Assembly: GCA_020850835.1 (NCBI GenBank)
Contig: JADZDX010000076.1
Span: 1 to 40,668, forward strand
Direction of reading: 5' to 3'
Source: Fimbriimonadaceae bacterium
GTDB lineage: Bacteria; Armatimonadota; Fimbriimonadia; Fimbriimonadales; Fimbriimonadaceae
DNA length: 40,668 bases
Shown: positions 17,933-33,105 of the stretch, piece by piece
Position numbering within the stretch: the first letter of the stretch is position 1
Layout of the letters: every line of letters starts with the position of its first letter
Program-made: the position numbers and the translations under genes
Notes under the pieces: generated by a model
What the model saw: only the letters and a program-made list of their open reading frames with translations
Databases searched by the model: none
Told to the model about the DNA's origin: nothing

Positions 17933-19474
17933 GTGCCACCTCAGCACTTTGACACGATCGTCATCGGAAGCGGCCTTGCTGGCCTGACCTTTGCCCTTGA
18001 CGCCGCCAAACAGGGCCCGATCATCGTACTGACGAAGGCCCAGCTTTGGGAATCCAACACCAGCTACGCTCAGGGTGGTATCGCCGCCGCCGTAGGAGAG
18101 AGTGACAGTTGGCAACTTCACGAACAAGATACGCTCATTGCCGGTGCCGGCTTGTGCGACCCGGCGGCCGTTCGATTTCTCGTTCAAGAAGCTCCTGCAG
18201 CCATTGAATGGCTGGCCAGTCTAGGCGCCCAATTCGACAAAGAAACGGACCTAACCGACTGGGCCCTCGGGATGGAGGGCGGGCATAGCCGAAATCGGAT
18301 CGTCCACCACGCAGACCGAACAGGTTGGGAGGTGGAGCGTGCGATGAACGAAGCTGTGCGCAAAGAACCGAACATCACCATCCTAGAGAACGCATTCGTT
18401 ACCGACCTTCTCATGCAGGATGGGCGTTGCATCGGTTGCGCAATGCAGGATCGGGACCTTGGCATTCGGACCTTCACAAGCCGTGCCGTCATATTAGCTA
18501 CCGGTGGCGCCGGAAGGTTATACCAACACACGACAAATCCAAGAATTGCTACCGCAGATGGCGTTGCGCTCGCGGCAAGGGTCGGGGCTGCAATTCAGGA
18601 CATGGAGTTCATGCAATTTCATCCCACTACGCTCTATCACCCCCAGATGCGTTCATTTCTCATCACTGAAGCCGCTCGCGGAGAGGGTGGCACCTTACGG
18701 AGCCATCAAGGGACTCGGTTCATGTACGATTACGACGAGCGTTTGGAACTCGCACCGCGCGATATCGTGGCACGAGCTATTGATGCCGAAATGAAGAAGC
18801 TCCAAACTTGGTGTGTCTATCTGGACATGACCCACCTAGCCCGTTCCCACATCGAAAGGCACTTCCCAACTATTGTTGAAAGGCTAAAGGGGGTCGGGCT
18901 TGAGCCACACAAGAATTGGATTCCCGTTGTTCCGGCTCAACACTATTCATGCGGTGGGGTCGTTACCGACCTGAACGGGCGCACTAGTATTCCCGGCCTC
19001 TTTGCCGCCGGTGAGGTCGCCCGAACTGGCGTGCACGGCGCCAATCGCTTGGCCTCCAATTCCCTATTGGAAGCTCTTGTATTCGCCAAGGCAGCCGCTA
19101 GCGCATTGAGCGGCGAATCAGTCCCTGAGATAAAGCCAACGGGCCCTGGAAATAGGCATTCCATCTTGGAGGCGGATGCCCTTAGAATCAGGCGTTCCCT
19201 GGAAAAGACCATGACCGAGCACGTGGGCATCGTCCGCCACAATCGTGGACTCGCCCAAGCAAGCGCTCGCGTCGCCGAGTTGACGAAGGAATACAATGAC
19301 CTTCCCGAAGCGCCACCCGACGTGTACGCAATTGAAGCAGAGAACCTCCTCATTGCGGCTAAGACCGTTATCGATGGGGCAATTGCACGACAGGTGAATG
19401 TTGGGTTGCACTATAACGCAGACTTAGACAGCGCCTCGGGCCATCAACCAAAGACAAGCATTGCGCCAAAGTGA
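17933..19474 (+). CDS. nadB: L-aspartate oxidase
   Basis: FAD enzyme that oxidises L-aspartate to iminoaspartate, the first step of de novo NAD synthesis. It has 513 residues from GTG 17933. The FAD-binding GSGLAG is at 12-17, and SYAQGGIAAAVG, RGEGGTLRS, LAPRDIVARAI and HGANRLASNSLLEALVF match NadB rather than succinate dehydrogenase, as does the E/D pattern after SYAQGGIAA. The GTG start lies seven bases after the previous stop, with a weak ribosome site. No nadA or nadC is adjacent. The last 31 bases overlap the 3' end of the cytochrome-like gene on the other strand. Confidence 0.93.
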   Translation: MPPQHFDTIVIGSGLAGLTFALDAAKQGPIIVLTKAQLWESNTSYAQGGIAAAVGESDSWQLHEQDTLIAGAGLCDPAAVRFLVQEAPAAIEWLASLGAQFDKETDLTDWALGMEGGHSRNRIVHHADRTGWEVERAMNEAVRKEPNITILENAFVTDLLMQDGRCIGCAMQDRDLGIRTFTSRAVILATGGAGRLYQHTTNPRIATADGVALAARVGAAIQDMEFMQFHPTTLYHPQMRSFLITEAARGEGGTLRSHQGTRFMYDYDERLELAPRDIVARAIDAEMKKLQTWCVYLDMTHLARSHIERHFPTIVERLKGVGLEPHKNWIPVVPAQHYSCGGVVTDLNGRTSIPGLFAAGEVARTGVHGANRLASNSLLEALVFAKAAASALSGESVPEIKPTGPGNRHSILEADALRIRRSLEKTMTEHVGIVRHNRGLAQASARVAELTKEYNDLPEAPPDVYAIEAENLLIAAKTVIDGAIARQVNVGLHYNADLDSASGHQPKTSIAPK

Positions 19475-30654: not shown

Positions 30655-30675
30655 AGCCCCAGACTTACTGGGGCT
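30655..30675. terminator. Hairpin between convergent acs and TPR genes
   Basis: A perfect eight-base stem AGCCCCAG/CTGGGGCT with five-base loop ACTTA lies ten bases after the acs stop and includes the last codons of the TPR gene. No U-run follows on either strand, so it may act as a bidirectional weak stop or 3' stabiliser rather than a classic terminator. Confidence 0.5.
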
Positions 30676-32449
30676 GGATTACCAAGACGGGCTTTCCGTA
30701 GCTCGCAAAATAGCGCCACGCCTCATAGAGGTTCGGAATCCCTTTGCCTTCCAAATTTACCGGGTCGCACTGACCAGCCAACTTGATGGTGGCTTCACTT
30801 GCGGCTTGGTACTTGTCAGCTTCCAACGCTAGCTTTCTTGCATCGTCGGCCGCTTTGCGGGCCTCATCCATCTGACCATTTGCCCGGAAACCGGCAGCCT
30901 GACCATCAGCGACCGAGCTTGCTTGGCGCAACCGAAGAGCCTCGGCGCCTTGCACCATGCTCAGAACATACTGGGCGGCACCGTATTCCGGACCAGCCGC
31001 GGCGGCCGACTGGGCATACTTCATGGCGTCCGCTTGCTTATTGTCAATCAGCGCGCTGATCGCCAGCCCGGTCAGAGCTTCAAAAGATTCTGGCTTTGCC
31101 GCAACCGCCGCGTCAAACATCACGCGGGCCAAAGACCGATAGTAGGCAACATCATCCTTGCCGCTCTCGGGGTTTGTTGAATATCCAATGAGTTGATTTC
31201 CGCGCATGATGTAGGCGTCGTAGCTCGAGGGCTCGTTCAACACCGCTTGCTCGAATGAGTTCTTGGACCCTTCGTAATCGTTCGCTGAATTGAAAAGAAT
31301 GGATCTGTAGATCATGACCACAAATCGTTGGTCCTCATCCTTGACCAAGTCGTTCACAAAACCGCTAAACGCCTGGGCGCGGCCTCTTGCCAAGGCAAGA
31401 AACGCTTGCGCCGAGCGGACTGTTACATCACTAGAGTCATTTTTGATCGCTTCAGTTTCGGCGGCGATAGAGCCGTCAGCATCTCCGGTTCGCTGGCGCG
31501 TGATGGCAACCAAGGCCCAACCAGCTGCATCGGGTAACCCGCGCTTACTGTAAATGCTGGCATTCTCGGCGGCCTGACGGAACTTGCCACCACGCAATTG
31601 AGCATAAATCAGGCGGTTCGCAACTGCGCTGTTCCGGGGGCTTGAGCGGAAGAGCGGGTCAAGCTCTCGGTAGACCAAGCTGTACCGACCGGATCGAATC
31701 GCAAGGTCAGCAAAACGCAGGCGATTCTCGTCGTTCACCGGGCCAAAGTTGTCCAAACGGCTCTCGTAAATCGCCGCCCTGCTCGCAGCGGCCTGTCGCA
31801 GTGCCTTATCGATGATATTGACCGTATCCTCTCGGGATGATCCAGTCGCATTGAAGGCCGTTCGCAGCGAAATAGCCGCCTTGAGGTCAAGTGCATCTGC
31901 ATTCTTAGGATCTTCAGCAAGGATATCTTGCACAAACTTCTGGGCCGCGTCGTAAACCCCACGACCAAAATTGGCGCGCGCCAAAAGAACACGGCCTCCG
32001 ATGTGCTTTGGAGATGCCTTCAGGGCTACACGACCCTTCTCGATGGCGGGTAACCACTTGCCTTCGGCCAGCAAGGCAAGCCCTTGATCGACAAAGAAGT
32101 CAGCTCCTTTTCCTAGTTCATTATCCACGACCAAGTTAAGGTTAAGGACCTTCTGAGCTCCTTCACTATCGTAGGCCAATACTTTGACTTTAATCGGTCC
32201 TTCTTTCTCAGCAATGGTGTCAATATCGAACTCATACGGCGTGCTCTCGTCGGTAGAACGCAGATCGTCGTTGACGTAGAACTCAACCTCAGAGACCGTA
32301 TGGGAAGATTGAACAGTGACGCGAAAGCCTTGGAGGCCGCTGATCTTCTGCCCATCCTTCACACTGCAAGTGATAGAAATTTGGGCTTGGGCAACCGCCG
32401 CAATCACAGCAGCGGACAGAGCCAGGATGAATCGGTTAACAATGCGCAT
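30665..32449 (-). CDS. Secreted Ig-like/TPR repeat protein
   Basis: From ATG 32449 this is 594 residues with a clear signal peptide (about 1-22, ending AVAQA). An N-terminal Ig-like domain (about 25-108) has VEFYVNDDLRSTDESTPYEF, close to the Big_7 pattern of secreted and surface proteins. Most of the remainder is helical tetratricopeptide-like repeats with repeated ...AALKA.P.. and AVLNEPSSYDAYI blocks. A likely periplasmic or surface protein interaction scaffold; partner unknown. The upstream start at 32485 would disrupt the signal peptide and is rejected. CATAAT sits 13 bases before the ATG. Confidence 0.8.
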   Translation of the reverse strand: MRIVNRFILALSAAVIAAVAQAQISITCSVKDGQKISGLQGFRVTVQSSHTVSEVEFYVNDDLRSTDESTPYEFDIDTIAEKEGPIKVKVLAYDSEGAQKVLNLNLVVDNELGKGADFFVDQGLALLAEGKWLPAIEKGRVALKASPKHIGGRVLLARANFGRGVYDAAQKFVQDILAEDPKNADALDLKAAISLRTAFNATGSSREDTVNIIDKALRQAAASRAAIYESRLDNFGPVNDENRLRFADLAIRSGRYSLVYRELDPLFRSSPRNSAVANRLIYAQLRGGKFRQAAENASIYSKRGLPDAAGWALVAITRQRTGDADGSIAAETEAIKNDSSDVTVRSAQAFLALARGRAQAFSGFVNDLVKDEDQRFVVMIYRSILFNSANDYEGSKNSFEQAVLNEPSSYDAYIMRGNQLIGYSTNPESGKDDVAYYRSLARVMFDAAVAAKPESFEALTGLAISALIDNKQADAMKYAQSAAAAGPEYGAAQYVLSMVQGAEALRLRQASSVADGQAAGFRANGQMDEARKAADDARKLALEADKYQAASEATIKLAGQCDPVNLEGKGIPNLYEAWRYFASYGKPVLVIQPQ

Positions 32450-32487: not shown

Positions 32488-32826
32488 CTATACGGCGGTT
32501 TCGCCATGCTCTTTGGTTCGGATGCGAATGGCGTCTTGGACGGGTTCCACGAATATTTTTCCGTCGCCTGGCTCGCCCGTTTGGGAATGAGCAATAATGG
32601 CCGCAATAACCTGGTCTTGCAAGTCGTCAGTCACGACTACACAAATCATGGCCTTGGGCGGCAAATGACTCAAGGTCTGTTGCCCCCCAAAGGCCACACC
32701 GCTCTCTGGGCTATTGCCACACCCTCGGACTTCGCTCACGGTCATACCAGTAACGCCGAGATCTGCGACCGCGGTCTTCACGTCCTCTGTCCGATGCGGG
32801 CGTATGTACGCAGTAATTCGACGCAT
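32488..32826 (-). CDS. PII family protein with altered T-loop
   Basis: A 112-residue PII signalling protein, exactly the length of E. coli GlnB, from ATG 32826. The second PII signature (TGEPGDGKIFVEPV) is conserved, as are Gly35/Gly37, Lys58 and Lys90. The T-loop is not: aligned without gaps to GlnB, Tyr51 (the uridylylation site) is Thr, Tyr46 is Phe, Gln39 (a 2-oxoglutarate contact) is Ser and Arg47 is Gly. Cyanobacterial Ser49 is Gln. So ATP/ADP binding may be kept while uridylylation and normal 2-oxoglutarate sensing are lost. No amtB or glnA is adjacent. Divergent from a ferredoxin gene. Confidence 0.88.
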   Translation of the reverse strand: MRRITAYIRPHRTEDVKTAVADLGVTGMTVSEVRGCGNSPESGVAFGGQQTLSHLPPKAMICVVVTDDLQDQVIAAIIAHSQTGEPGDGKIFVEPVQDAIRIRTKEHGETAV

Positions 32827-32834
32827 GTTCACCT

Positions 32835-32840
32835 AGTATG
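32835..32840 (-). promoter_or_regulatory. Candidate -10 of PII gene
   Basis: Minus-strand CATACT, eight bases before the ATG at 32826. Those eight bases contain AGGTG, so a ribosome site and a -10 nearly touch. It faces the ferredoxin -10 only five bases away. Confidence 0.35.
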
Positions 32841-32845
32841 AGCGG

Positions 32846-32851
32846 TAAACT
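32846..32851 (+). promoter_or_regulatory. Candidate -10 for leaderless ferredoxin gene
   Basis: TAAACT followed by eight bases and the ATG at 32860, with no Shine-Dalgarno site. Confidence 0.45.
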
Positions 32852-32859
32852 CTTACCCA

Positions 32860-33105
32860 ATGCCCTACGTCATCACGGAAGCCTGCATCGGAGTGAAGGA
32901 CAAGTCATGTATGAACGTTTGTCCGGTGGATTGTATTTACGAAGGCGAGGACATGGTCTATATCCACCCGGATGAGTGTATTGATTGCGGCCTGTGTGAG
33001 CCCGAGTGCCCCGTGACGGCGATCTTTGTTGATACCGATGTACCCCCGAATCTAACGAGCTACATCGAAAAGAACAAGGAAATGGCGGAGAAGCTCAGAG
33101 GCTAA
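32860..33105 (+). CDS. fdxA: Seven-iron [3Fe-4S][4Fe-4S] ferredoxin
   Basis: An 81-residue low-potential electron carrier. Cysteines at 9, 17, 21, 40, 43, 46 and 50 match Azotobacter-type seven-iron ferredoxin: Cys9, 17 and 50 for the 3Fe-4S cluster and Cys21, 40, 43 and 46 for the 4Fe-4S cluster; Cys25 is the extra free cysteine also present in that family. The partner is not clear from context. The last four bases overlap the PilZ gene on the other strand (CTAA/TTAG). Confidence 0.93.

Follow-up and report, generated by a model that had tools for sequence, protein, structure and literature searches.

What does a PII protein do in a cell that carries the modifying enzyme GlnD when GlnD cannot modify that PII? 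This question is raised by a gene in a 40,668-nucleotide stretch of a Fimbriimonadaceae genome (contig JADZDX010000076.1 of GCA_020850835.1, the whole of which we call the window). Its product retains the PII core but lacks the tyrosine needed for control by GlnD, and the original prediction was that its rebuilt T-loop might serve a new target.

A PII protein with an altered T-loop

The gene lies on the minus strand at 32488..32826, with an ATG at 32826, a stop codon ending at 32488, and an intact frame of 112 codons; an in-frame GTG at 32832, upstream of the ATG, would add two residues if used. The 112-aa GlnB-like product matched the entire Pfam P-II profile (PF00543, positions 1-102 of 102, E = 4.1e-24, 85.3 bits vs. 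a cut-off of 25), and every one of its best solved relatives is a PII. An AlphaFold2 monomer (pLDDT 85.3, pTM 0.75) was poorest at residues 39-43, within the T-loop. Foldseek searches with this model returned PII proteins as the PDB matches, at E-values down to 2.5e-13, which points to the ferredoxin-like PII fold. The C-terminal (second) PII signature is intact. NCBIfam equivalog scores, given here for the window PII only, fell well short of the cut-offs for GlnB (90.5 vs. 202 bits) and GlnK (78.1 vs. 181 bits), which may be too strict for Armatimonadota.

Residues were numbered against the E. coli GlnB sequence. In this alignment, the altered T-loop (codons 38-57, NSPESGVAFGGQQTLSHLPP, minus strand, 32656..32715) carries Ser in place of Gln39, Phe in place of Tyr46, Gly in place of Arg47, Gln at position 49, and Thr in place of Tyr51, and Glu replaces Gly at position 41. 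The coordinates, the 112-aa length, and every residue change named in the original prediction were exact. K58, K90, R101, and R103 are retained in the same alignment, and R9, T29, G87, and F92 were read from the translation. All of the ATP/ADP-site residues (T29, G87, K90, F92, R101, and R103, with roles as in an excerpt of PMC8395244) are present.

Tyr51, which GlnD control needs, is Thr in the window PII, and Ser49, the phosphorylation site of cyanobacterial PII, is Gln. Neither uridylylation nor Ser49 phosphorylation should thus occur as known, as had been claimed. In a GlnK crystal structure, the keto group of 2-oxoglutarate is held by the backbone of both Gln39 and Gly41, Arg9 and Lys58 bind its carboxylate by a salt bridge, and the Gln39 side chain is directed to Mg (PMC8395244, in excerpt). 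The window PII keeps R9 and K58, with Ser for Q39 and Glu for G41, and position 58 is mostly R or K in its relatives. The claim that the standard 2-oxoglutarate contact is inoperable therefore stands for Q39 but not for the carboxylate residues, and the residue changes suggest that 2-oxoglutarate binding is likely weakened or altered. Loss of 2-oxoglutarate sensing is known from an algal PII whose residue 47 is Gly, according to an excerpt of PMC7027753.

The type-B clade and its loop

At 2.15 Mb and 88% completeness, the bin that represents the window's genome is incomplete; it has exactly two PII matches, namely the window copy and a copy on contig C68 that has the canonical set of Q39, Y46, R47, S49, Y51, and K58. 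GlnD and GlnE are both present, and AmtB was not found in this 2.15-Mb, 88%-complete bin. The nucleotidyltransferase (GGYGRQEL...SDLD) and HD motifs of this GlnD look intact by eye. A degraded GlnD had been suspected because the GlnD matches in families f1 and f5 came as two pieces; this candidate was dropped, since the motifs in the window's genome look intact.

In a tree built without the T-loop columns, the divergent PII copies of the window's order grouped together (43 rows, 42 labelled plus L053, SH-aLRT 87). When nine PIIs from other Armatimonadota families were added, 67 rows (58 from the order and nine from outside) formed one side of a branch with an SH-aLRT of 94, a value from a “quick” method with few columns that does not count as a starred one. 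Most forks within the clade are poorly resolved in these trees, which rest on 93 and 90 columns. Pro56, a marker at the T-loop base that was left out of the tree columns, agrees with this grouping, being present in 56 of 58 order rows, all nine outside rows, and 0 of 43 canonical rows. The window gene, a PII by sequence and modelled fold, belongs to an ancient Armatimonadota paralogue clade, which we name “type B”.

Outside the order (families f11, f12, f13, and f19), type-B rows have R47, Y51, and K58 in 9/9 cases each and Q39 in 3/9, and a further 20 outside loci read by eye had Y51 in 18 and P56 in 19. Within the order, Q39 occurs in 0/58 type-B rows, K58 in 9/58 (Arg in 44), and Y51 in nine of the 57 rows with a letter at that position, so the T-loop changes of the window copy hold across its order relatives. 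The ATP site is much steadier in the same rows (R101, R103, and G89 each 58/58; D88 and K90 each 56/58). Canonical rows have Q39 and K58 in 43/43, R47 in 38/43, and Y51 in 42/43, the exception being genome G023. Because the outside rows keep Y51 and R47, the type-B ancestor most likely had a normal loop and the modification site was lost in the window's order. The retention of Y51 in nine of 57 order rows also means that an inability to be uridylylated applies to the window copy and does not extend to every ortholog.

The loop had been described as rebuilt, but it is the most variable part of the clade rather than a newly conserved one. Mean entropy over columns 38-55 vs. elsewhere was 2.21 vs. 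1.33 bits in type B, compared to 0.73 vs. 1.09 bits in canonical copies. Purifying selection on the type-B loop persists within genera and is weaker than in the canonical loop, with loop pN/pS values of 0.19 vs. 0.08 across 28 pairs each in genus g37, and 0.11 vs. 0.02 across three pairs each in the window's genus. Together, the high entropy and weaker constraint indicate that the type-B loop is not rebuilt into one new shape and has instead lost a special constraint. Elsewhere, loci L125 (genome G044) and L241 (G133) encode 103-aa PII-like proteins in which the T-loop is almost wholly missing. Large genomes of genus g20 (G114, G125, and G127-G130) carry three to five PII genes, some groups of which the tree places with amtB-linked PIIs; G114 also has a type-B PII.

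A rival explanation is that the window copy is a decaying glnB duplicate. A canonical glnB does exist in the same genome, as that reading expects, and the window copy has lost Q39, R47, and Y51. However, comparison with the nearest relative (G001) gave a dN of 0.0099 and a dS of 0.254 for the window PII (dN/dS ~0.04), vs. a dN of 0.0078 and a dS of 0.443 for the canonical PII, indicating strong purifying selection; the codon test was unusable between the window's genome (G000) and G004, where synonymous sites are saturated. The reading frame, the second signature, and the ATP site are intact, and a single old clade spans families f1, f2, f4, and f5. The window PII is not decaying, and we regard the duplicate-in-decay explanation as highly improbable. 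One refutation offered by the original prediction was a canonical second copy showing that this one decays; it held only by half, as the canonical copy was found and decay was not, given purifying selection and one clade through the order.

Neighbouring genes and a possible other target

An FdxA-type ferredoxin gene (81 aa, 32860..33105, plus strand) starts 33 bp from the PII gene. This neighbour is divergently oriented, and, contrary to the original description, its product is an ordinary FdxA type (NCBIfam FdxA_Actino 114.5 bits, slightly below the cut-off of 125). A search of 32700-33000 for sigma-70-like promoters found none, which leaves the proposed interleaved promoters unsupported. An fdxA gene lies near the type-B PII in only five of the 41 loci of the window's family (a set in which L005 and L264 are the same contig), so its neighbourhood gives no clue to function, and it was rejected as a partner.

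The original prediction did not mention the neighbour that is best conserved across the family. It is a 594-aa protein (30665..32449, minus strand) encoded 38 bp past the PII stop in the same orientation, with a hydrophobic N-terminal leader, an Ig-like (Big_7) domain, TPR repeats, and predicted export. Its gene is next to the type-B PII in 36/41 family loci and 7/7 f5 loci; the 36 comprise 35 plus L068, where an extended frame caused it to be scored upstream and inspection placed it downstream. Directly upstream of the PII gene, 20 of the 41 family loci have a Bax1-I-type membrane protein, for which one Bax1-I match was above the cut-off (E = 1.5e-8) and two others were weaker. This multi-pass, Bax-inhibitor-1-related protein has invariant Asp180 and Asp203 (first-row numbering; example L108:4329-5000), and it is also upstream at L005, L055, L065, L068, L074, L076, L082, L085, L087, L091, L093, L101, and L103. 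The TPR and membrane proteins were at first favoured as partners because of the operon structure. They were rejected, since in G011, G014, G020, and G023, which have no type-B PII, the two genes are next to each other and the retrieved stretch contains no match to PII, and neither co-occurs with it. Because they persist without it, these neighbours do not need PII.

Beyond the window's family, no gene context was common to all families. Family f2 has the order sigma70-rex-nadB-PII, with nadB directly upstream of the type-B PII in 12/13 loci and gene ends overlapping or adjacent. This apparent operon joins rex (an NADH-sensing repressor), nadB (L-aspartate oxidase), and type-B PII (e.g., L143:2065-4638), and a PII link to NAD synthesis is possible there. 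The window's own nadB is 13 kb away on the opposite, plus strand (17933-19474), and no nadB turned up around the type-B loci of f1 and f5. In family f12, a type I glnA (TIGR00653) lies within ~3 kb of the type-B PII on the same strand in 6/11 genomes; the remaining 21 outside loci examined, three of them holding canonical-type PIIs, showed no glnA nearby. No recurrent neighbour cluster at the order's loci resembled glnA, glnD, or glnE in a general neighbour-cluster comparison. A PII-glnD operon occurs at L278 (G112), in a different Armatimonadota family, where the gene for a canonical-type PII and the start of glnD overlap.

These arrangements bear on the idea that type-B PII acts on some other target through its lineage-specific T-loop, such as NadB in f2 or the Bax-inhibitor-1-like protein, with any shared loss of nitrogen genes reflecting a general loss of nitrogen control. 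The kept f2 gene order, the membrane protein upstream in the window's family, and purifying selection on the loop within genera are in line with it, and PII control of the NAD synthetase NadE has been published (PMC7196632, in excerpt). Yet the membrane and TPR genes are adjacent in four genomes without a type-B PII, and their presence does not track that of the PII. In the window, nadB lies away from the PII gene, and it was not found close to the loci of f1 or f5 either; the families have no single context in common. We therefore consider another target unlikely.

Co-occurrence with GlnD and comparison with known systems

We compared gene presence across 61 genomes of the order, 50 of which were ≥90% complete; counts for these 50 are given as both/type-B PII alone/other alone/neither, and Fisher values for them ignore kinship. 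Type-B PII matched GlnD without exception (39/0/0/11; weak GlnD matches below ~110 bits, which mostly covered just the HD part, were disregarded), GlnE with one exception (38/1/0/11, G034), and canonical-lineage PII with one (39/0/1/10, G023). By contrast, there was no association with AmtB (9/30/4/7), and the counts were 22/17/9/2 for the membrane protein and 38/1/9/2 for the TPR protein. When all 61 genomes were considered, the only GlnD exceptions were G025, G058, and G060, each <85% complete. AmtB, which is in 15/61 genomes and was not found in the window's genome, was rejected as a partner.

A second set of 41 genomes of the window's family (42 minus G148, whose copy status was ambiguous) gave 28/0/1/12 for GlnE (exception G120) and 28/0/2/11 for GlnD (G117 and G120), with copy presence in some genomes taken from an A3-model score and not from sequence. 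Across the two sets, the exceptions differ in kind. G034 (92% complete) has the copy and GlnD, and GlnE was not found in it; G120 has GlnD and GlnE, and the copy was not found; and G117 has GlnD but lacks GlnE, canonical PII, and the copy. On a tree built from the two neighbour proteins, TPR and membrane, the PII-less state required seven changes, at least five of them forced by starred (well-supported) branches. The combined loss of the copy and GlnD thus arose repeatedly.

In one genus, six genomes (G023, G118, G119, G124, G126, and G131) retain only a canonical-lineage PII; GlnD, GlnE, and the copy are all missing from them. In all six, this canonical-lineage PII has lost Tyr51, suggesting that the canonical copy keeps its Tyr51 because of GlnD and that type-B PII, despite having no such tyrosine, tracks GlnD. 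In three of them, G118, G119, and G131 (L237, L239, and L238), the canonical-lineage PIIs have shortened or scrambled T-loop tips.

Could this co-occurrence be non-functional, with both PIIs, GlnD, and GlnE simply lost together and the copy's job minor and partly redundant? Near-complete genomes without any PII are also without GlnD and GlnE, and the T-loop is less constrained than that of the canonical copy, both as this explanation would have it. Still, the six genomes above kept a canonical-lineage PII although GlnD, GlnE, and type-B PII are gone, and a dN/dS of ~0.04 and the persistence of the clade in most GlnD-bearing genomes also speak against it. Joint loss of this kind seems to us a doubtful account.

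Our preferred reading, to which we give a probability of roughly 0.5, is that the window PII is a functional, non-uridylylated companion PII in a circuit of GlnD, PII, GlnE, and glutamine synthetase. It is supported by the co-occurrence with GlnD and GlnE, the repeated joint loss, the proximity of glnA in f12, and purifying selection. This evidence favours the old GlnD/GlnE nitrogen circuit over the new target first proposed. Several points speak against it. The joint loss could mean a general loss of nitrogen control and not a direct link, the six-genome case may represent one or two events, G034, G120, and G117 are exceptions, and in f2 the copy sits instead in an apparent rex/nadB operon.

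In the companion role that we prefer, type-B PII would have left GlnD's substrates but stayed in GlnD's circuit. It would read adenylates, with a small or altered response to 2-oxoglutarate, and would stay unmodified at any glutamine level while modulating the canonical cascade. One possible route is binding to GlnE or GlnD through the PII body and loop base. Alternatively, type-B and canonical PII could form mixed trimers, which would carry fewer UMP groups per trimer; E. coli GlnB/GlnK heterotrimers are mentioned in an excerpt of PMC5448240. In such trimers, the unmodifiable PII would be a fixed adenylate-reading subunit, and the ratio of the two gene products would set the strength of the signal from GlnD to GlnE. 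This model would explain why a tyrosine-less PII is kept only beside GlnD and a tyrosine-bearing PII, and we put it forward tentatively, as an improbable but specific version of the circuit.

In the open-access literature that we searched, we found no description of the type-B clade and no PII study in Armatimonadota, and the main text of the Fimbriimonas genome paper does not mention PII or P-II. The clade offers a natural series within one phylum: the paralogue has a complete T-loop and lies close to glnA in one family, and in another its switch is gone and it is kept only beside the modifying enzyme. It thereby makes our opening question about PII testable.

Compared to GlnB and GlnK (PF00543), the window PII is alike in length, modelled fold, ATP-site residues, C-terminal signature, R9 and K58, and Pfam score. 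It differs in lacking Tyr51, Arg47, Gln39, and Gly41 and in having P56 in place of a hydrophobic residue. The type-B PIIs of f11, f12, f13, and f19 share its side of the branch and P56, but they have their own Y51, R47, and K58 and in some cases Q39, and some are near glnA. More broadly, PII modification is often dispensable, and many PIIs are never modified. An excerpt of PMC4285133 describes PIIs without T-loop modification as well known and common, ties modification to GlnD-bearing groups, and reports that GlnK Tyr51Ala still responds to nitrogen status. Nitrogenase-linked, metal-transport-linked, and plant or algal PIIs resemble the window PII in having an unmodified T-loop (PMC4285133, in excerpt). 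Unlike these unmodified PIIs of other groups, the window PII is absent where GlnD is absent and coexists with both GlnD and a modifiable PII.
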